57,917 nucleotides of DNA from positions 1 through 57,917 of the IMG/VR virus record IMGVR_UViG_3300043409_000324; one strand, given 5' to 3'. Of this stretch, positions 18,015 through 57,917 are shown piece after piece. The position numbers and the translations under genes were made by a program. The notes under the pieces were generated by a model. That model saw nothing but the letters and a program-made list of their open reading frames with translations. It did not search any database and was not told the origin of the DNA. Source of the DNA: a virus. Each line of letters opens with the position of its first letter. Position 1 is the first letter of the stretch.

Positions 18015-18434
18015 ATGGCACATTTTGCAAAAGTAGAAAACGGTATTGTTACACAAGTTATTGTGGCTGAACAGGACGTTATTGATTCTGGAATGTTTGG
18101 CACAGGTTGGGTGCAAACTTCTTATAACACTCATGGTGGTTGGCATCCCAATGGTCGTCCCTTGCGTAAGAACTACGCAGGTATTGGTTACATCTATGAC
18201 ATTTCCCGTGATGCGTTTATCCCGCCCAAGCTCAATGCGTCTTGGACATTGGATGAGGAAACTTGTCTTTGGATTGTTCCAGCTAGCGACCTTACAACAG
18301 AAACCGCAGTTGTGGATAACACCAATGGTGCTGATACCATCATTATTGAAATGAGTTCAAACGGTGCTGATAGTATTGTTGGCGGGGCGGATTCTATTAC
18401 GGGTGGTATAGATTTAGGTAACGGAGGCGTTTAA
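18015..18434 (+). CDS. Conserved phage fibre-region protein
   Basis: 139 residues from the ATG at 18015 (GAGGA upstream); the open frame extends further 5' but only as a shadow of adhesin 2. It contains MAHFAKVENGIVTQVIVAEQ, LRKNYAGIGYIYDISRDAFI and SWTLDEETCLWIVP. This is a domain I recall from fibre regions of cyanophage-like and freshwater phages, perhaps an assembly factor or a small structural protein. The C-terminus is a run of short Gly/Asp repeats (NGADSIVGGADSITGG). Confidence 0.75.
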   Translation: MAHFAKVENGIVTQVIVAEQDVIDSGMFGTGWVQTSYNTHGGWHPNGRPLRKNYAGIGYIYDISRDAFIPPKLNASWTLDEETCLWIVPASDLTTETAVVDNTNGADTIIIEMSSNGADSIVGGADSITGGIDLGNGGV

Positions 18435-41991: not shown

Positions 41992-43707
41992 TTAGTGGCA
42001 CTCACGCCAGTTGTTACCAACTTTTCCTTCGGCATCAACTGGACAACGGAAACCTAAAGCCTCACCTGCCTTGGTTGCTGCTTGCTCTATGAGCCTAGCT
42101 GCTTCCTCTGCCTGATCTTCCTTAACTTCCCACTGTGTTTCGTCATGAACAAACGCTAACAGTTTAGCATTTATTCCCCTCTCTTGCAACAGCTTTGTTG
42201 ATTCAATAAGCCACTGCTTAGCCACAATAGCACCTGCACTTTGCAGCAATGTGTTCAAAGCAGCATGCTCAGATCTAACCCACACTCTCCTACCATCCAG
42301 TGCAGGGAGATGACCCTTAGCCATCAGTCTAGATATCTTCTTCTTCAAGGCAGAAAGGCCGGGTGTGTTATTGATAAAACTATCAATAAGTTTCTTGCCT
42401 TTGCTACTGTTACCACCAACAATCGATCCTGCCTTAGCAGCACCTGCTCCATACAGCACACCATATGTCAGAGTCTTGGTAACATTCCTAGCCTTCTTAT
42501 GCTCAGGGTTGTTATCGTCCTTCACAGTGCCTTTGTCAACTAAGCCAAAGCTCTGTGCATTAAACCAGTGGATGTCTCCTTTAAGCAACTCATCCATCCA
42601 CTCTTGGTCATTTAAGTAGTGACCTAAGCAGCGAAGCTCAATACCTGATAGGTCTACACCCACCTGCTTATACCCCTTAGGCACTGTCCATACCTCTCTG
42701 CACTCAGCACCATATGGACCACCCACTGCAGGGATCTGTGCCATGTTAGGACTGCTGTGTGTGGCTCTGCCAGTGACAGCACCATTGGTAGTGACTCTGC
42801 CATGCACCCTACCATCATCGGCTACCAGTTCAAGCCAACTGCTGATCTGAGCCACACGCTTTTGAATCATTAAGTATTCAGCTACAAGCTTTGCTTCAGG
42901 CAAGTCAATCTTCTCAAGTACAGCTTCATCCACAATGACATTGCCTTTGTCTGTCTTCTTTGTAAACACCACACCAAGCCCCGCCAATCGCTCAGCAATC
43001 TGCTGCCTACTACCTGAATTAAAAATGGTAATCTTATCTTTCAGTTGCTTGCCTGTCTTCTCAGAGATGCGTTGCTCTACGATGGGAGGGAACACTTTCT
43101 GCATGCTCTCTTCAATGTCAGACATGCGTCCACTCAGTGTGGCATGTAACACCATAGCCTTAGGCATATCAAGCATGAAGCCATTGTCTTCCATGCCTCG
43201 GCAGATCAGTGCCACCTCATGCTCAAGCTGTATGCTTTGTAGGGAAAACCCTTCTCTTATCATGGTTGTTGTCAGAAACTCATACAGTTTTCTGACAAGT
43301 TGAACATCCTGCTCACAATAGGTAGCCATCTCTTGTGTCCACCCACCATCGAAGTCAGTGAAGCCAATCTTGTAGCTACCTAATCGGTAGCCCCATGCCT
43401 CTAAGCTGTGAGGGGTGGGTGCTTTACCTTCTTTAGGGAGTACCACCTCAATGTCAGGTTTGTACAGCCGTGACATCACCAGTGTATCCACTAGCATGTT
43501 GGCAGGAATGCCAACACCCCATACCTTATTTAGTATGGGAGCATCAAAGCCAATGATGTTGTGGCCCACCACTTGCTCACCCTCTAAGTATTGCTGCAAG
43601 CTGTCGGCTTCCCGCCAGTGCCTCACCTCACCAGTAACGCTGTGCTTAGTAACACACAACCATATGGTGTCATGTTTCAGGTTTGTCTCTATGTCTAAGA
43701 AGATCAT
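41992..43707 (-). CDS. DNA polymerase, family A with 3'-5' exonuclease
   Basis: 571 residues from the ATG at 43707 (AAGGACAAGGACG upstream); the ATG at 43725 would add six residues. The exonuclease domain shows FLDIETN, VVGHNIIGFDAPI and YCEQDV. The polymerase domain shows motif A VDLSGIELR, motif B RNVTKTLTYGVLYGAG and motif C FVHDETQWEV. The fidelity/processivity position equivalent to E. coli Phe762 is Tyr415, as in T7. It replicates the phage genome. Confidence 0.95.
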   Translation of the reverse strand: MIFLDIETNLKHDTIWLCVTKHSVTGEVRHWREADSLQQYLEGEQVVGHNIIGFDAPILNKVWGVGIPANMLVDTLVMSRLYKPDIEVVLPKEGKAPTPHSLEAWGYRLGSYKIGFTDFDGGWTQEMATYCEQDVQLVRKLYEFLTTTMIREGFSLQSIQLEHEVALICRGMEDNGFMLDMPKAMVLHATLSGRMSDIEESMQKVFPPIVEQRISEKTGKQLKDKITIFNSGSRQQIAERLAGLGVVFTKKTDKGNVIVDEAVLEKIDLPEAKLVAEYLMIQKRVAQISSWLELVADDGRVHGRVTTNGAVTGRATHSSPNMAQIPAVGGPYGAECREVWTVPKGYKQVGVDLSGIELRCLGHYLNDQEWMDELLKGDIHWFNAQSFGLVDKGTVKDDNNPEHKKARNVTKTLTYGVLYGAGAAKAGSIVGGNSSKGKKLIDSFINNTPGLSALKKKISRLMAKGHLPALDGRRVWVRSEHAALNTLLQSAGAIVAKQWLIESTKLLQERGINAKLLAFVHDETQWEVKEDQAEEAARLIEQAATKAGEALGFRCPVDAEGKVGNNWRECH

Positions 43708-43870
43708 CGTCCTTGTCCTTATCATTTTGTTGGAGATTGTTAACTTTCTCCGACTGTTTGTAATCTTCTAATGAGTCTCTACCAAAGATGGCATTCCATC
43801 TTGATGCCCACTCTTCATCAGCTATTGACTTGGGACGCTGAGCATGTCCCTTTCCACCGTCACTCGTCAT
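43670..43870 (-). CDS. Small phage protein upstream of DNA polymerase
   Basis: 66 residues. MTSDGGKGHAQRPKSIADEE then WASRWNAIFGRDS is a short motif widely found in small phage proteins of unknown role. It overlaps polymerase by 38 bases and the next gene by 11. Confidence 0.75.
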   Translation of the reverse strand: MTSDGGKGHAQRPKSIADEEWASRWNAIFGRDSLEDYKQSEKVNNLQQNDKDKDDDLLRHRDKPET

Positions 43871-44090
43871 ATCTTTGCCACACCAGTACAGGCGTGTCCT
43901 CTCCTATGTAAGCACCCTCAATGTTGAAGACAATGTATTCATTTGCTTCCTCTTCAGACATACCATCCCTATCCATAAACACTTTGATTATTAGATCAGC
44001 ATCATAGACTAAGACCTCCACTCTCTTGTTGCCTTTCCATACGGAAGCTTGTCCTAGTATGGCATCGTCAAGGCCATCCCACTGTTTCAT
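43860..44090 (-). CDS. Conserved small phage protein
   Basis: 76 residues. VYDADLIIKVFMDRDGMSEE then ANEYIVFNIEGAYIGEDTP is a recurring phage pattern (short helix DRDGM, then beta strands). Found here between primase-helicase and polymerase genes. Role unknown. Confidence 0.75.
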   Translation of the reverse strand: MKQWDGLDDAILGQASVWKGNKRVEVLVYDADLIIKVFMDRDGMSEEEANEYIVFNIEGAYIGEDTPVLVWQRYDE

Positions 44091-45700
44091 AACATCATCC
44101 TTTCTATAGTGTCATCAATCTCAAACATTCTGCCAGTGTCTTTGTTATAAAGCAAGCTGCAAGCAGGACCAGTTTGTCCACTGTATCTGTTCTTTAACAC
44201 CCTCACCTTGGTGGTGTTACGCTCAATGGGATCGTCAGCCTGACCGTTCCTCTCAAGAGACACCACCATGTCACTAAGCTGTGCAATGGCTGCACTACCC
44301 CTTAGCTGAGCTAAGCTAGTGGCTGCACCTTCTTCATGTCCCTTGTCTGATGGACGCTTGAGGTGGCTAACAATGATGAGAGCAATGTTAGTTTCCTGCA
44401 CAAGCATGCGAAGCTTGGTCATGATTTCATCAATGGCTTTGCGTTCATCACCATTGTCCTGACTGGATACGATGATGCTGAGGTGGTCTAGGAATACATA
44501 CTTACAGCCTAGTCCCTTAGCCATATACTTCACACGATTGACAATGTTCTCAATGGCTGTGCTGCCGAAGTGGTCAAAGAAGTACAAACGTCCAGTGCCT
44601 AGAGTCTTCTCGAATGCGTCCTTGCGTACAGCATCAGACACCATAGATGTAGGCAGGTGCAGGGGTGTGTCAGCAGCAAGGCTCATCATGGATAGGCTAG
44701 TCTTACGCACACTCTCTTCAAGAAACATTAAGCCAATGCTGTCATCACAGTTCTGCAACAGATGCCAAACTATTTCCCTTAGGGTTTGACTCTTACCTAG
44801 TCCACTACCTGCTGTGAATGTAACCAGTTCACCTGCTCTGATGCCATAGGTAATATCATTCAACCCCTTCCAAGGATAGAAACAGTCTGCTGCCTCCATT
44901 GGTTTAGACACTAGCTCCCACAACCCAGTGCCACTAACAATACCATCAGGTATGAATGGCTCTGCTGCCCACCAACGGGATACGAATGCAGCCTCCTTGC
45001 TTTCAGCAAGCCACTCACATGCATCCTTGTATGAGGGATCAGGTTTAAATATCTTGCACTTGCTGCCAAACAATTCAGCAACTTCCTTTGCTGCCTTCTG
45101 CCCTGCCTCATCACCATCAAAGCACAGCACCACAGTTTCAAAGCTGTTGATGTATTCGTAGTTGGCTTTGGCATCCTTCAATGCACTACCTGCACCTGTG
45201 CGTATAGACACCACAGGATATTTACTGCCTGTCAATTGGTATGCAGCCAGTGCATCAAACTCACCCTCAGTGATGGTGAGATACTTACCATTGGATGGGT
45301 ATAGGTTCTGTCCAAACAATGTACCCTTGCTCCACCCACCCACTGTCGTAAACTTCTTATCCTTCACCTCTCTACGCTTAGCTGCCACCAGTTGTGAGTT
45401 GCTGTCGTAATAGGGGAAGTAGTAATAACCACCACTGCGAACAACCCCATAGCGTTCCATCGTGGCTTTGTTAATGCGTCTGTCTGATACAGACACACTA
45501 ACACCTTCGTTGTAGTCTTTAAAGAAAGAACTTGTGTCTTTCGTTTCTGTATCAACATCAATCACTTCAAGTCTTTCTTTGTTCATTGAGGGAATGTATG
45601 TGTTACATACAAAACATTTGGTGGACATGTCATCGTTGATGGACAAGCCATCACTACTGCCACATGTCTCACAAGGTAGGTGGGTTTTTAAGAATGTCAT
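44087..45700 (-). CDS. DNA primase-helicase (T7 gp4-like)
   Basis: 537 residues. An N-terminal zinc module (Cys10, Cys13, Cys29, Cys32) is followed by a TOPRIM primase (TITEGEFDALA, VVLCFDGDEAG). A RecA-type hexameric helicase follows, with Walker A AGSGLGKSQT, the Walker B-like KYVFLDHLSIIVS and LIIVSHLKRP. It unwinds the fork and makes RNA primers. The zinc module suggests primer-site recognition like T7. Confidence 0.94.
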   Translation of the reverse strand: MTFLKTHLPCETCGSSDGLSINDDMSTKCFVCNTYIPSMNKERLEVIDVDTETKDTSSFFKDYNEGVSVSVSDRRINKATMERYGVVRSGGYYYFPYYDSNSQLVAAKRREVKDKKFTTVGGWSKGTLFGQNLYPSNGKYLTITEGEFDALAAYQLTGSKYPVVSIRTGAGSALKDAKANYEYINSFETVVLCFDGDEAGQKAAKEVAELFGSKCKIFKPDPSYKDACEWLAESKEAAFVSRWWAAEPFIPDGIVSGTGLWELVSKPMEAADCFYPWKGLNDITYGIRAGELVTFTAGSGLGKSQTLREIVWHLLQNCDDSIGLMFLEESVRKTSLSMMSLAADTPLHLPTSMVSDAVRKDAFEKTLGTGRLYFFDHFGSTAIENIVNRVKYMAKGLGCKYVFLDHLSIIVSSQDNGDERKAIDEIMTKLRMLVQETNIALIIVSHLKRPSDKGHEEGAATSLAQLRGSAAIAQLSDMVVSLERNGQADDPIERNTTKVRVLKNRYSGQTGPACSLLYNKDTGRMFEIDDTIERMML

Positions 45701-46249: not shown

Positions 46250-46392
46250 TTTACTGCCTCCATATACAAACCCACATTACCCAGTGCATAACCAACAAAG
46301 GCTATGCCTAGCCCAGTGTTCCCTTTGAATAGCAGATCCACTGCCACCACTGTATACACCACCCCAACAATTGCAATAAGCCATGCACTCAT
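46246..46392 (-). CDS. Small membrane protein
   Basis: 48 residues. MSAWLIAIVGVVYTVVAVDL then GLGIAFVGYALGNVGLYMEA gives two membrane segments. The frame is short but has ATGA overlaps on both sides. I have seen a similar 45-50-residue membrane protein (VG..Y...A.DL.F.G..GL...F..YA..NVGL) in podoviruses. Function unknown. Confidence 0.7.
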   Translation of the reverse strand: MSAWLIAIVGVVYTVVAVDLLFKGNTGLGIAFVGYALGNVGLYMEAVK

Positions 46393-46655
46393 GATTGCAC
46401 CTTAAACTCTTGAAGCACTCTTATAGTTGCTTTAATAAGTTCCATATCTTGAGTTGGCTCAGGCACATTACTTTCCCACCTCAGCAGGAATTCCAATTCA
46501 TCTACGATGATGGCTTCAATTTCATCTCTTGTCATTTGTTTCTCCTCTTTCATTAGTCGAACATATTGATCTGTCTTAGTGCAATAGCTTCTTATCCAAG
46601 CCTTGTCACTGTCACGTTCATACACTTCATTACAGTGTACACATCTGTACTTCAT
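46389..46655 (-). CDS. Small protein with zinc-ribbon-like start
   Basis: 88 residues. MKYRCVHCNEVYERDSDKAW and a third Cys in SYCTKTD could form a zinc-binding knuckle with His7. The rest is helical and acidic. It overlaps the integrase gene by 4 bases. Function unknown. Confidence 0.65.
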   Translation of the reverse strand: MKYRCVHCNEVYERDSDKAWIRSYCTKTDQYVRLMKEEKQMTRDEIEAIIVDELEFLLRWESNVPEPTQDMELIKATIRVLQEFKVQS

Positions 46656-47752
46656 ACCAGTCCCCTCATTTCCTGTGTCACTGTTGCACTACGCAAAGTG
46701 TTCTTGATGTAGGGTGTTAGGCTCTGCGGTGTGGCATGGCCTGACACTGACATGATGTTGGTGATGGGTACACCCACCTCAATCATCTCTGTGATGGCTG
46801 TCCTTCTCAAGTCCTGCAACACTAGGTCACTAGGCAAAGCAGCATCAGCTAAGATTTGCTTAGCCACTCTAGACAAGTTGAACAAGCTGTAAGGAACCAG
46901 CCCACCCTTCCTATCAGGAACATTAGAGGGTGCAATGTATTGCTGCCAACCAAACTCAGCATGCTGTTGTCTCAGCATAGTTAGTAGCCCAGTGCTTGTG
47001 GGAATGGTCACCCTAGACCTACGCTTGCTTTGTTCCAAGTGCAACACACCCTTCTCTAGGTCAACCTGATCCCACTTAAGCTTACGCATATCCCCCATAC
47101 GCTGTCCATATTCATAGCCCATCTGCACTATGAGTCCCACATTACGCCACTTGAATGTGGAGTAGGCAGTGTTCATGAATGCTCTCACATCTTCTCTGCT
47201 CCACACAGTTCTGCGAGGCTTGTCTGCCCTTCGTAGCACCTTGCTGAATGGATTGTGTGTGATGTAGCCATGACGAATAGCGAAGTTAAAGAGCAGTCTA
47301 TAGACAGCTAGAGTGTGGTTAGCTAAGCTAACACTGTGCTCAGCATGTTGTTCATATATCTTCTGACAATGTGGTGTGACTAAGCTTCCAAGCTTACACT
47401 GATACAGTGTCACTCCATTGGCCTTGCTGTCCTGCCACCCCTGTAGGTAGTAGATGTAGTCACGCTGTGCTTTAGCACTGAGCTTAGTGTAGGTGATGTT
47501 GTTCTTGTATGCCTTAACTAGATCAGCCACCTTCGTATTCACAGAGATATCTTTAAGATATCTAAGTTCTTTACGCCAGTTGTCTAGCTTAGCATTCAAC
47601 TCCTCAGCCAAAGCAAAGGCTTTGTCTTTGTTAGTGCCGAGCATAGTGCGTTCAACAACACCCGCATCCACTGCATCCTGAGGTGGGTTGTAGCGGTACT
47701 TGATGACACCTTCGGTGGCCTTAGCTAGTGTCACATAGCGAGGGAGATTCAT
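46652..47752 (-). CDS. int: Tyrosine recombinase (integrase-like)
   Basis: 366 residues. It has an N-terminal arm-type domain, a SAM-like core-binding region and a catalytic domain. The catalytic set reads Arg218 (YGQRMGDMRKL), a Lys in QSKRRSRV, QDLRRT with Arg316, His339 (VSGHATPQS) and the nucleophile Tyr348 (TPYIKNT). The HxxR position is Gln313 instead of His. No excisionase or repressor is apparent nearby and no intergenic attachment site can be recognised, so integration is uncertain. Genome resolution is an alternative role. Confidence 0.88.
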   Translation of the reverse strand: MNLPRYVTLAKATEGVIKYRYNPPQDAVDAGVVERTMLGTNKDKAFALAEELNAKLDNWRKELRYLKDISVNTKVADLVKAYKNNITYTKLSAKAQRDYIYYLQGWQDSKANGVTLYQCKLGSLVTPHCQKIYEQHAEHSVSLANHTLAVYRLLFNFAIRHGYITHNPFSKVLRRADKPRRTVWSREDVRAFMNTAYSTFKWRNVGLIVQMGYEYGQRMGDMRKLKWDQVDLEKGVLHLEQSKRRSRVTIPTSTGLLTMLRQQHAEFGWQQYIAPSNVPDRKGGLVPYSLFNLSRVAKQILADAALPSDLVLQDLRRTAITEMIEVGVPITNIMSVSGHATPQSLTPYIKNTLRSATVTQEMRGLV

Positions 47753-47973
47753 TCTTGTTCCCTTGCCTTCATCATCTGTTCAGCAAACCAATAGGCTCTG
47801 CTTGCCACTTCAGCATGTGGAATGTTATATGCACTGGTCATCAGTATAGCCATAGCCTTAGCTGCGAAGTAGTCACGCAGGGTCATGCCATCTTTGAATT
47901 GATCGGGGAATGCTGATTGCATGTTGTTGCTCTCCATGTAATTTCCTGCTGTTGTAAATTTTAAATCATTCAT
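47749..47973 (-). CDS. Small conserved phage protein (DYFAAKAM type)
   Basis: 74 residues. GMTLRDYFAAKAMAILM and RAYWFAEQMMKAREQE match a short phage family I recognise by DYFAAKAM and a C-terminal helix ending in MxKAR. Function unknown. It overlaps the next gene by 8 bases. Confidence 0.8.
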   Translation of the reverse strand: MNDLKFTTAGNYMESNNMQSAFPDQFKDGMTLRDYFAAKAMAILMTSAYNIPHAEVASRAYWFAEQMMKAREQE

Positions 47974-48802
47974 CTGTTCCTCCTAGTGCATAAAGTGTTT
48001 CAGCCATATCAATGAGTTCATCCTTCTTCATTAGCTTTTCTAGCCATCTATTTGGTATACCTTTCAAGCCATACTTACGTCCTGCTAACATACCAGTGAC
48101 AGCACCTAAAGTGTCAGCGTCAAAGCCCATGTTCACTGCCTTCACTAAAGCTTTCTCGAAGGTAGAAGTTTCTCTCACACATTCCCATGCCATGTTGTAT
48201 GTATACATGATAGTTCCTGTGGCATACGGATCACGATAGTGTTTGAGATAGTCGAAGCTGTCCTCTGCCTTGCCTGACATAAGCTCAGTCACAAACCCTG
48301 CAATGTAATGCACAGTGTCTGCATTACCATGTGTCATCAATGACACGGCTATGCTCTGTGCCACAGCATTAGGCATGTTGTTGTGATTGGCAAGCACAAT
48401 GGGAGCAAGCCTCATGATGGAGCCATTACCACTAGCACCATAACTACTGCTACCTGCATAGGGGTTTGTAACATCCATCCTGTGGATGGCTTCACTGCAT
48501 GTCCTACCAATGTCAAAGACATAATCTCTAGTACCGAAGTGGCCTGTCTTCTTCCACATCTTAAAGTTCATGGCAATGGCTTCAGGGTCAAAGCGTTTGC
48601 TGCTTATGTATGCATCGGCAATAGCCACAGCCATAGCGCCATCGTCTGTCCATTCACCTTCGGCAGTGTTGTGCATACCCCCACCCTCCATCTCTGTCAG
48701 TGTGTGTGTCATCTCATGTGGCCTCATGAATTCCAATGGAGCACCTAGTGCATCTCCAATGAACAGACCCATGAACATACCAATTGCTTTATCTTGATGC
48801 AT
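47966..48802 (-). CDS. ADP-ribosylglycohydrolase (DraG/ARH-like)
   Basis: 278 residues. The family motifs are present: FIGDALGAPLEF at 15-25, WTDDGAM at 51-57 (usual WTDDTxM, so the Thr is Gly here), GNGSIMR at 125-131 and GFDADTLGAVTG at 226-237. These supply the binuclear Mg site and cover the full family length. It removes ADP-ribose from a side chain or DNA base. In a phage it might reverse a host ADP-ribosyl defence, or tune the effect of its own ADP-ribosyltransferase. That is inference. Confidence 0.9.
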   Translation of the reverse strand: MHQDKAIGMFMGLFIGDALGAPLEFMRPHEMTHTLTEMEGGGMHNTAEGEWTDDGAMAVAIADAYISSKRFDPEAIAMNFKMWKKTGHFGTRDYVFDIGRTCSEAIHRMDVTNPYAGSSSYGASGNGSIMRLAPIVLANHNNMPNAVAQSIAVSLMTHGNADTVHYIAGFVTELMSGKAEDSFDYLKHYRDPYATGTIMYTYNMAWECVRETSTFEKALVKAVNMGFDADTLGAVTGMLAGRKYGLKGIPNRWLEKLMKKDELIDMAETLYALGGTDE

Positions 48803-55438: not shown

Positions 55439-55442
55439 TTAT
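55428..55442 (-). other. Hairpin at the stop of the 55439 gene
   Basis: ATAAGC and GCTTAT surround a 3-base loop and include the stop codon. On the minus strand it is followed by TTGAT, a poor T-tract. It may be a weak terminator or a 3' stabilising stem. Confidence 0.4.
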
Positions 55443-56155
55443 ACAACAAATCCTGTCGTATCAAGCTTCGCTTTACCTTTAGCATACAGTCCGACAATGA
55501 CTTTGTCATCAAGGTGACGAACATCAGAGTTGTCTCCAGAGACAACAGGGATTCCCATAAAGCTTTGGGGAATGTCTTGTTCCTTTCGGAACACTACCGC
55601 CATTCTCATGTTGTTTAACAAAGCATTTTCGACATAAGGCTGAAAGCCTTCCACACCGGAATAGGAAAATGTCAGGTCATAGTTACTTGGTAACTCAGTG
55701 CGGTTTCCTCTCTTAGTGTAGTCATAGAATTGAATCTCAGGAAAAGCAGCAAATATGTTTACATATTCAATGCCATCAGTGTCAGTAAAAGCTACGCTTT
55801 CCCACCGAATGTCACTAGTACCATTCAATCTGACTAAAGGCTTTAAGCCTTGCTTGTTAGCCTTCTTGATAAGCTTAGCAATATCAACAACAAGTTGTTG
55901 CATGAAGCTGTTTCGCTCAGTGAAAAACCATGTGGTTTTATTGATCCTAGCTTGCTGAACAGAGCTGAAAGCTCCACGACCTGCAGTGTTGAGGCAAGCC
56001 ACATCACATTGAGCCTTTTTAGCCATTGGACAAGTGTTCCACTTGGTAGTGTTTGCCGGAGCTAGATAGAGAATGCCAGTTAAGAAACCTAAGGTTTCAC
56101 CCTTGATAGTTTTGGCATCGGACGATACAGAAAGCAGAGCTTTAGACTTGAACAT
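55439..56155 (-). CDS. Cys-motif protein, gp88/DUF7227-like
   Basis: 238 residues from the ATG at 56155 (a longer frame to 56203 lacks a ribosome site). GFLTGILYLAPANTTKWNTC, then MAKKAQCDVACLNTAGRGAF gives a Cys cluster C-x6-C-x3-C. LVRLNGTSDIRWES, IQFYDYTKRGNR, LTFSYSGVEG, VVSGDNSDVR and an end GLYAKGKAKLDTTGFVV follow. This matches a phage family I know as gp88-like/DUF7227; the Cys could bind a metal or Fe-S cluster. Function unknown. Leader hairpin copy at 56160-56173. Confidence 0.72.
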   Translation of the reverse strand: MFKSKALLSVSSDAKTIKGETLGFLTGILYLAPANTTKWNTCPMAKKAQCDVACLNTAGRGAFSSVQQARINKTTWFFTERNSFMQQLVVDIAKLIKKANKQGLKPLVRLNGTSDIRWESVAFTDTDGIEYVNIFAAFPEIQFYDYTKRGNRTELPSNYDLTFSYSGVEGFQPYVENALLNNMRMAVVFRKEQDIPQSFMGIPVVSGDNSDVRHLDDKVIVGLYAKGKAKLDTTGFVV

Positions 56156-56222
56156 TGTGTTTCCTTTAGGAAAGTTGTGGCAACATTGCCGTTGAGGTTT
56201 CAATTGTAGCGGTATCCAATAA

Positions 56223-56239
56223 CCCTGTCAATCACAGGG
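56223..56239 (-). terminator. Probable weak terminator after the 56232 gene
   Basis: CCCTGT and ACAGGG with a 5-base loop form a 6-pair stem that includes the stop codon of the gene. On the minus strand it is followed by TTATTGG, so the T-tract is poor. Confidence 0.45.
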
Positions 56240-56468
56240 CTTTTCTAGTGCCAATAAAGGTTTTACCTTTAAACAACAGGGCTTCATCATAACATCCCAT
56301 CCACTGCATTGCCTCAGCTTTGCTGAGTGTGTAGTGGGATTTCTTGAATCCGACACCAGTTACTTTGTAACCGAATTTCCTAGCAACTAGTGCCAATGAA
56401 TCGTCTTTGACAGCATAGACAAATGATGCAAGTGATGCAAAGAAAAGTGAAGGGATAATGTATTCCAT
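56232..56468 (-). CDS. Early membrane-anchored protein
   Basis: 78 residues. One N-terminal hydrophobic span (YIIPSLFFASLASFVYAV), then a basic domain with ARKFGYKVTGVGFKKSHYTL and a final FIGTRKAL. The start overlaps nothing; the leader hairpin copy at 56474-56485 is the perfect palindrome TTCCTTAAGGAA with the ribosome site in its 3' half. Function unknown. Confidence 0.6.
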   Translation of the reverse strand: MEYIIPSLFFASLASFVYAVKDDSLALVARKFGYKVTGVGFKKSHYTLSKAEAMQWMGCYDEALLFKGKTFIGTRKAL

Positions 56469-56494
56469 GATAGTTCCTTAAGGAAAGTTAAAAA

Positions 56495-56821
56495 TTAATA
56501 ACCACAATTAATTCTGAAAGCTTGGAAAGCTTTTGTAAAATGTTGCTTGTCGTTTGAAACCAGTGCAACAACATCGACCCAGCCAGCTTGTTCCATAGCA
56601 TAGGCTTCATCAGTTTTCTTTTGAATTGCCTTCAAAAGATCTTGGATTATTTTCCGAAGACTCTTGATATCTTCATCAATTACGCCCCTCTTTTTCAAGA
56701 AAGGTTTGACAATGGTATGCCATTTTTCATTGATACCGAAAATGTGATTCCCTTTTTCGGAACAAATCGATTCGGTTAAATCTAAAAACTTGTTGTCAAT
56801 TTTCATCTTCATGTCTTTCAT
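56495..56821 (-). CDS. First early gene, hypothetical helical protein
   Basis: 108 residues from the ATG at 56821; other in-frame ATGs lie at 56854, 56812 and 56806. Central ESICSEKGNHIFGINEKWHT, then KPFLKKRGVIDEDIKSLRKI and a long helix. No recognised domain. Its start region lies in the descending arm of a long inverted repeat (56811-56894), which would hide the start codon in RNA. It is the first gene behind the early promoter at 56978-57006. Bacterial-like composition and lack of a ribosome site are odd. Confidence 0.6.
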   Translation of the reverse strand: MKDMKMKIDNKFLDLTESICSEKGNHIFGINEKWHTIVKPFLKKRGVIDEDIKSLRKIIQDLLKAIQKKTDEAYAMEQAGWVDVVALVSNDKQHFTKAFQAFRINCGY

Positions 56822-56894
56822 TTTATAAGAAAGAGAATAAGTTCCCTTTTTCACAAGTTAAAAAGGAACCTTATTCTCATAAAATGAAAGACAT
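56811..56894. repeat. Long imperfect inverted repeat over the first early start codon
   Basis: Arm 1 runs from 56811 to about 56851 and arm 2 from about 56860 to 56894, with an 8-base loop. ATGTCTTTCATTTTAT (56811-56826) is perfectly mirrored by 56879-56894. After a 6-base insertion (AAGAAA) in arm 1, GAGAATAAG and CTTTTT pair on. The stem is about 35 pairs. It lies between the early promoter and gene 56495-56821. Confidence 0.85.
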
Positions 56895-56918
56895 GGGTTC
56901 AGGCGCATGCCCGCAGAT

Positions 56919-56988
56919 CTTCCTATATTTAAACAAAAGAAGATGCCAGCAAAGCTGTCATATCTTTTGTGATTATAAATATAGGAAG
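56919..56988. repeat. Imperfect inverted repeat overlapping the early promoter
   Basis: CTTCCTATATTTA (56919-56931) mirrors TAAATATAGGAAG (56976-56988), and ACAAAAGA (56933-56940) mirrors TCTTTTGT (56963-56970). The right arm contains the -10 of the early promoter, so the repeat may be a regulatory site or a structured element next to the origin. Confidence 0.7.
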
Positions 56989-57006
56989 TCAAGATAGAGT
57001 TGTCCA
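56978..57006 (-). promoter_or_regulatory. Early leftward sigma-70-like promoter
   Basis: On the minus strand, TGGACA (57006-57001), 17-base spacer, TATATT (56983-56978). Both hexamers match consensus at five of six bases with ideal spacing. It would drive the whole early region. Its -35 overlaps the first DnaA-like box (57000-57008). Confidence 0.65.
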
Positions 57007-57113
57007 CAGTTTGTTCTTGGCTCGGCTTGAGATGTTGTGGATAACTCCAGTGACTGCTGTGGATAACTTTGGATTTTGAAGGCTGTGGATAACTTTGGTT
57101 TTGCTGTTGATAA
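57000..57113. other. ori: Probable replication origin with five DnaA-like boxes
   Basis: TTGTCCACA at 57000-57008, then TGTGGATAA (reverse complement of the consensus TTATCCACA) at 57036-57044, 57058-57066 and 57084-57092, and TGTTGATAA at 57105-57113. Three are perfect consensus boxes. Start-to-start spacings are 36, 22, 26 and 21 bases. An AT-rich segment lies on the left. The cluster fits a host-DnaA-dependent origin. Confidence 0.75.
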
Positions 57114-57170
57114 CTATACTGATCGGGGTATAGCTTTAGGGTGGTGGATATACCGACCTTTCTGTCAAGG

Positions 57171-57197
57171 GGTTATGCCAAAAAAGCATAACCTTTT
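57171..57197 (+). terminator. Hairpin with T-tract right of the origin
   Basis: GGTTATGC and GCATAACC flank CAAAAAA to give an 8-pair stem followed by TTTT on the plus strand. It could block plus-strand transcription from leaving the origin. The T-tract is short, and the A-run in the loop is unusual. Confidence 0.5.
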
Positions 57198-57324
57198 CCG
57201 GTGGTTTTTAAGGTGGTGAACCGATTTTGAATCAGTATTCAAAGATCTTCTAAGTCCTTGAATTCATTGAAGATATCTTCTTCTTGAGTGAACTGCATTC
57301 TATGTCTTTGATTCACCTAAGATC

Positions 57325-57403
57325 TGCATCGCATCGCAGGGCTGCTACGGCTGCAGGGCTGGGCGGCAGCGTGGCGGGGCGGGGGCCAGCGGGGGGTGGT
57401 GCG
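57325..57403. other. G-rich island
   Basis: A 70-80-base stretch dominated by G and C, with GGGCTG repeats and runs of three to six G, inside strongly AT-rich flanks. It contains four successive G-runs that could form a quadruplex on the plus strand. Its composition is unlike anything else in the window. Confidence 0.6.
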
Positions 57404-57760
57404 TTATTGTATATGGCCTCGTACAAAAATCAGGAAAATAGAGCCTGTTAACCAAACTCCATTCTTGGCAGCTCCCACACCGTCATAGAAATAATATTTC
57501 ATAACAAAGCTGCAGATGAAACAATCGATCTGCACCGTCAACTACCCAGAGATGTGTACACGCTAGTATAGGAAATGTTCAGTATATTAAACAAAAGGAC
57601 AGATCAACTATGCATATAAAATTGCACAAGGTGCTAGTAGTAGTAACATATATGTTACTGGATAAGAACTGTTCTCATTGAAGTTTCATGCAAACTTAGA
57701 CACCCCTATGGACCATTTGTTAAACAGCTAACATATCTGAACATCCCCTACAGAAAAAGC

Positions 57761-57788
57761 TTGACATTGGTTTCAATATGTGTAAAAC
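57761..57788 (+). promoter_or_regulatory. Rightward sigma-70-like promoter at the right end
   Basis: TTGACA (57761-57766, perfect), 16-base spacer, TAAAAC (57783-57788, four of six). If the molecule is circular it would transcribe across the junction into the rightward arm. Confidence 0.5.
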
Positions 57789-57917
57789 TACCCGTACCTG
57801 CACCATGTATGCCTTTATGCATACAGGCGATACGAAACAAAGTATGAGCTACCTTCCGGCTACAGGTAAAGAAATGAGCTTGCAATCGGCTGCTGAAGAG
57901 AAAAGACTCGGAGAGAG
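57778..57917 (+). CDS. Partial open frame at the right edge
   Basis: From the ATG at 57778 (alternatives 57805 and 57844) the frame is open to the last base, 46 codons plus two bases. It has no good ribosome site. The end SLQSAAEEKRLGE is helical and, if the sequence is circular, continues in frame from base 1 as RLTRLDLMWVLVKSCC and stops at 47-49. It may be a small basic protein transcribed from 57761. Function unknown. Confidence 0.4.
   Translation, partial: MCKTTRTCTMYAFMHTGDTKQSMSYLPATGKEMSLQSAAEEKRLGE

Follow-up and report, generated by a model that had tools for sequence, protein, structure and literature searches.

The 57,917-nucleotide stretch of viral DNA analyzed here (the window) harbors an array of DnaA boxes that, judged from its sequence, is very likely bound by the DnaA protein of the host. 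Its main function may be that of a replication origin in a phage without an RNA polymerase, a reading for which the chances are close to, and slightly short of, even. As predicted, positions 57000-57113 contain five 9-mers within one mismatch of TTATCCACA in 114 bp, three of them perfect (Table 1). Four of the five boxes share one direction and box 1 is inverted. The start-to-start distances are 36, 22, 26 and 21 bp, so that the proposed interval of about two helical turns agrees only roughly with three of the four gaps, the 26-bp gap being off phase. The only other perfect box in the whole window is located at 18311. The best 114-bp segment obtained in 300 dinucleotide shuffles held three boxes (at most one mismatch) and one perfect box, compared to the observed five and three, and none of 1679 permuted 9-mers reached five boxes or three perfect ones in the real sequence. 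This bears out the expected excess over shuffled sequence. A chance cluster, whose expected number is far below one, was rejected on the basis of the shuffles, the permuted 9-mers and the conservation in relatives, and can be dismissed with near certainty.

Table 1. Features of the array and its surroundings in the window
Feature	Position	Strand	Remark
Replication genes (family-A DNA polymerase, primase-helicase)	41992..45700	-	
First genes of the early block, downstream of the array (119-aa ORF, 78-aa ORF, GP88-family gene)	55439..56854	-	
Second long hairpin, leader of the first early gene	56810..56895	-	z = -8.7; similar hairpin in relatives
AT-rich dyad/hairpin, 70 bp	56919..56988	-	Conserved; adjoins box 1, then invariant AAGATCTGCG
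Alternative -10, TATAAT	56972..56977	-	In most relatives 21-22 bp away from box 1
Candidate leftward early promoter, TGGACA-17-TATATT	56978..57006	-	Sigma-70-like; from sequence only, 10/12
DnaA box 1, TTGTCCACA	57000..57008	+	One mismatch; inverted relative to the other four
DnaA box 2, TTATCCACA	57036..57044	-	Perfect
DnaA box 3, TTATCCACA	57058..57066	-	Perfect
DnaA box 4, TTATCCACA	57084..57092	-	Perfect; found in only some relatives
DnaA box 5, TTATCAACA	57105..57113	-	One mismatch; found in only some relatives
Conserved near-palindrome region, GGTGGTGGATATACCGACC	57138..57157	.	Far edge of the array; includes degenerate box ATATCCACC on the - strand
Conserved AT-rich intergenic block, GATCTT repeats	57224..57330	.	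Opposite side of the array
G-rich island, several G-runs	57340..57403	+	83% G+C; 38 G and 15 C of 64

Relatives were retrieved via the GP88-family gene beside the array, and the 30 closest ones containing that stretch were compared. The array was located at the same place in 29 of them. It consists of a fixed three-box core (inverted box, 36 bp, box, 22 bp, box), which is often accompanied by one or two more boxes. Across 28 distinct rows the identity of the box columns was 94%, whereas that of the spacers was 70% (P = 7e-7, to be taken as a guide only, as both columns and sequences are related). The slot of box 1 is occupied by TTATCCACA, TTGTCCACA, TTATTCACA or TTATCAACA in these rows, and changes in the boxes are mostly restricted to forms that still resemble a DnaA box. 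One of the three core boxes in L005 reads TTATCCCCA, and two alignment rows are offset by one base. The single exception among the 30, L027, retains the flanking palindrome and the hairpin and carries other repeats in place of the boxes. A further relative, L127, possesses four perfect boxes 21 bp apart at about 180 bp from the hairpin and the promoter. The displaced array of L127 together with the boxless L027 indicates that the array behaves as a separable module. The replacement repeats of L027, in the region L027:4800-5700, include two copies of a CCCGATCAGGACATTT motif and possibly reflect a different initiator or host. Arrays of other spacing (11-12 bp in L040 and L042) or position occur in the more distant relatives L040, L042, L062 and L063.

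Arrays of this kind are not confined to the clade. The three-perfect-box pattern was present in at least 120 viral-contig stretches, compared to a single one for a scrambled pattern with the same letters. Among 106 distinct viral-contig arrays, neighboring boxes shared their direction in 383 cases versus 36 with opposite directions. The same-direction spacings peaked at 11-12, 19-23 and 29-32 and were rare at 13-18 and 24-28; because two spacings of 19-31 were built into the search pattern, only the shape inside that range and the peak at 11-12 are informative. Peaks of this kind would be expected if a protein occupied a single face of the helix. Unrelated phages repeat the exact consensus, and do so in phase with the helix, which makes binding of host DnaA the natural reading. 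The boxes could also be iteron-like and bind a phage-encoded protein, with only a superficial likeness to DnaA boxes, and direct repeats at a spacing of 21-26 bp do resemble plasmid iterons. However, no Rep-like protein was found in the window, where many early genes lack an assigned function, and the unrelated phages sharing the same 9-mer belong to different host groups, which makes such sites highly improbable.

Use of one viral-contig array as query located T7-like isolates with comparable arrays. Shigella phage A7 and Klebsiella phage ZK1 each contain eight boxes in their direct terminal repeats of 177 and 292 bp, respectively, and Enterobacter phage phiEap-1 has five perfect ones in its 195-bp repeat. 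Related arrays were found by BLAST in about 20 more Klebsiella and Proteus phages, the boxes themselves being checked in Koku and ZK1 only. The left ends of T7 (1-1200) and SP6 (1-1500) are devoid of boxes. Near-identical arrays occupy the two ends of G021, a contig that has a PolA gene and in which no RNA polymerase was detected; most viral contigs are fragmentary, however, which makes a missing RNA polymerase in them weak evidence. A small box cluster was also observed in Lactococcus phage WRP3 (L233:2453-2543), in a gap between opposing gene blocks.

The phage had been described as T7-like, which is only partly appropriate. PolA and the primase-helicase fit this label, but TerL and the portal place the phage with the HMO-2011-type podophages. 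TerL is 61-79% identical to that of HMO-2011 and the CRP isolates over most of its length, and an HMO-2011-type portal, which is SU10-like, and coat protein are present according to profile matches only. The best matches of PolA (577 aa) are HTVC103P-type pelagiphages (44%). Besides PolA and the primase-helicase, the window encodes ribonucleotide reductase, ThyX, a 5'-3' exonuclease and a tyrosine integrase. The integrase gene is located at 46652-47752; neither an attachment site nor a tRNA was recognised with it, and no tRNA was found elsewhere in the window. A weak CII-like match occurs at 46389-46655 and an ADP-ribosylglycohydrolase gene at 47966-48802 in the early region. No match to the DnaA C-terminal domain was obtained in the window, and a search of bacterial genomes with the primase-helicase, aimed at the host, gave no match either.

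The predicted absence of a phage RNA polymerase was confirmed, as there is no match to RNA_pol (PF00940) in the window; the same search gave strong matches in five T7/SP6-like records and none in five close relatives. The reasoning built on this absence, namely that DnaA acts because a polymerase is missing, does not hold in general. The T7/SP6-like phages A7, P483, phiEap-1, ZK1 and Koku carry arrays and encode a T7-type RNA polymerase as well. Conversely, 11 TerL- or PolA-related isolates or records, including HMO-2011, CRP-1, -3, -9 and -207, HTVC033P and HTVC103P, lack a cluster of perfect boxes; each has between zero and two of them, never in close proximity (one-mismatch boxes were checked in four). 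Thus, the sites are probably useful to the phages, yet not simply a substitute for a missing polymerase. Phased arrays at the junction of early and late genes or inside the terminal repeat might instead represent a recurrent module of many podophages, repeatedly gained or exchanged, by which incoming phage DNA captures host DnaA for a function common to different replication strategies. This proposal, held with somewhat less than even confidence, would take in the T7-like phages with their own RNA polymerase.

The proposal that DnaA starts replication withstood the comparison in part: the boxes are real, clustered and conserved and lie in an origin-like setting at the early/late divergence beside an AT-rich dyad, but the link to the missing polymerase was not supported as reasoned. 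The array is located in an intergenic region of about 1.4 kb, from which the early (leftward) and late (rightward) blocks diverge. Cumulative GC skew is lowest at the contig start, a neighbor of the array once the sequence is drawn as a circle, and highest at 35.3 kb, the point of convergence of the gene blocks; since the skew tracks gene direction exactly, it cannot separate replication from transcription. Three features favor an origin in this phage: it encodes no RNA polymerase, it has the AT-rich dyad, and its array lies at the point of divergence, at which the skew also turns. Host DnaA would bind the array cooperatively and a DnaA filament would open the adjoining AT-rich DNA, on which the phage primase-helicase and DNA polymerase would begin replication. 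The AT content reaches 70% in 50 bp within the dyad and 64-66% in the block at 57224-57330. Near the array, no unwinding-type 13-mers were demonstrated and, by eye, no clear run of DnaA-trios was seen. Further arguments against an origin are the lack of a match to the IHF consensus in 56800-57400, L027, which keeps hairpin and palindrome without boxes, and the cultured HMO-2011-type phages without an array. Furthermore, the arrays in terminal repeats of polymerase-bearing phages imply that such an array need not be an origin, and they keep a transcriptional, a titrating and a terminal role under consideration.

The dyad next to box 1 is itself conserved. All 26 of its pairs are kept in 16 sequences, with eight pairs changed on both sides, and its covariation score is 0.287 compared to 0.096 after shuffling and at most 0.146 after sliding; these changes fall into few haplotypes and thus represent a small number of independent events. 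Folded as RNA, the dyad is much more stable than shuffled sequences (z = -6.7). It could act either in RNA, as a leader structure, or in DNA, as a dyad. A search of Rfam near the array returned no plausible family, and the eukaryotic microRNA matches at 56809-56896 merely mirror the long hairpin.

The array could mainly be a switch for early transcription, with replication starting elsewhere. The early genes read away from it and, as predicted, the -35 of the best leftward promoter candidate, TGGACA, falls within box 1. In relatives the candidate promoter mostly scores 8-10 (of 12), and the overlap is kept in 27-28 of them. The distance from box 1 to the -10 is also steady in nearly all relatives, at 16-17 bp (TATATT or TATTTT) or 21-22 bp (TATAAT). 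However, the -35 would persist by conservation of the box alone, as it is part of the box. With TGGACA as the -35, DnaA at box 1 would repress; with TATAAT as the -10, box 1 would lie at about -39, lacking a good -35, and DnaA would activate, the other boxes providing cooperativity in both cases. The four additional boxes exceed the needs of a simple operator, and the best-scoring sigma-70 matches of phiEap-1 and A7 are hundreds of bases away from their arrays. In L127 no such box is found near the promoter, which together with the boxless L027 indicates that promoter gating is not essential. A switch is regarded as unlikely to be the main function. Of the predicted gating of early transcription by DnaA, the promoter overlap is confirmed. 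Because box 1 lies within or beside the early promoter, the favored origin model adds a probable, secondary modulation of early transcription by DnaA in this clade.

Alternatively, the array might act as a DnaA sink comparable to datA, in which high-affinity boxes multiplied by phage replication sequester host DnaA, halt host initiation and free resources for the phage. The mostly perfect consensus boxes in one direction would suit this purpose, as would the presence of arrays in many unrelated phages, some with their own RNA polymerase, and DnaA titration on the E. coli chromosome is reported in PMC12371093. However, any location would serve for titration, yet the arrays adjoin conserved control elements at the early/late junction or the genome end, and no clear gain is apparent within one lytic cycle. 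A sink is considered unlikely.

The location of some arrays suggests a further role, in which boxes at or in a direct terminal repeat serve concatemer processing, end protection or the first steps of entry, with DnaA being architectural. It is supported by the arrays inside the terminal repeats of A7, phiEap-1 and ZK1, by the two contig ends of G021 and by nine of the 42 contigs of the window family, which break inside the G-rich island 230-290 bp beyond the array. These breaks are ragged (3-55 bp from the marker) and lie in a G-run, as expected from poor coverage, and G003 closes elsewhere with an overlap of 127 bp. A physical genome end in the island was hence not accepted. No terminal repeat is demonstrable in the window either. 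Relatives run on from 57917 to base 1 after about 60 bp, which indicates that the contig end is not a natural end and that the window is nearly a whole genome. Taken together, a terminal function has a low probability for this array. A foreign or chimeric origin of the tail (57320-57917) was rejected, as it aligns to relatives throughout. Two observations concern this region. The short block GTATATGGCCTCGTNCAAAAATCAGG at 57409-57434 is present in 42 viral-contig stretches. Within 57761-57917 plus 1-126, a candidate rightward promoter with TTGACA at 57761 precedes about 250 bp that are nearly invariant in relatives with surroundings of about 74% identity; this stretch is possibly a late leader or regulatory RNA, and its part at 57786-57917 showed no unusual stability when folded.

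From their genes alone it is not evident how podophages that lack an RNA polymerase of their own start replication. The array provides a concrete candidate start site that is conserved across an uncultured clade, and the arrays in terminal repeats of culturable T7-like phages make a role of DnaA in these phages directly testable in laboratory strains. They also show that it would be too simple to take a box array as a stand-in for the phage polymerase. For a Pseudomonas phage, an origin with DnaA boxes has been assigned by Ori-Finder (PMC11512268). The open-access literature searched contained no description of DnaA-box arrays in the terminal repeats of phages; one in a subscription journal is possible.

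Compared to bacterial oriC, for example that of E. coli, the candidate origin shares clustered TTATCCACA boxes and same-direction runs beside AT-rich DNA. It differs in having no dnaA gene and no match to the IHF consensus site in 56800-57400, and in having one inverted box that separates the AT-rich dyad from the direct run. Like datA and other DnaA-titration loci it comprises a few strong boxes in a short intergenic stretch, but it is placed at the early/late junction beside a conserved hairpin and, again, lacks the IHF match. In lambda- and P1-type replication regions host DnaA participates, and the window resembles them as phage DNA with host DnaA sites. In contrast to these, no O/P- or RepA-type initiator was identified in the window, and the phage supplies PolA and a primase-helicase. 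The family-A polymerase and primase-helicase are shared with T7-type replication, whereas a single-subunit RNA polymerase was not found in the window. With the HMO-2011-type phages it has a homologous TerL and oppositely oriented early and late blocks in common. However, HMO-2011, CRP-1, -3, -9, -207 and HTVC033P have no perfect-box cluster, and a motif search of the window PolA did not detect the CXXCXGXG zinc motif, two copies of which are reported for the PolA of this group together with a partial DnaJ domain (PMC9038755). A7, phiEap-1 and ZK1 differ in their T7-type RNA polymerase and in the placement of the array inside a defined terminal repeat, but they share with the window a phased DnaA-box array between packaging and early genes.
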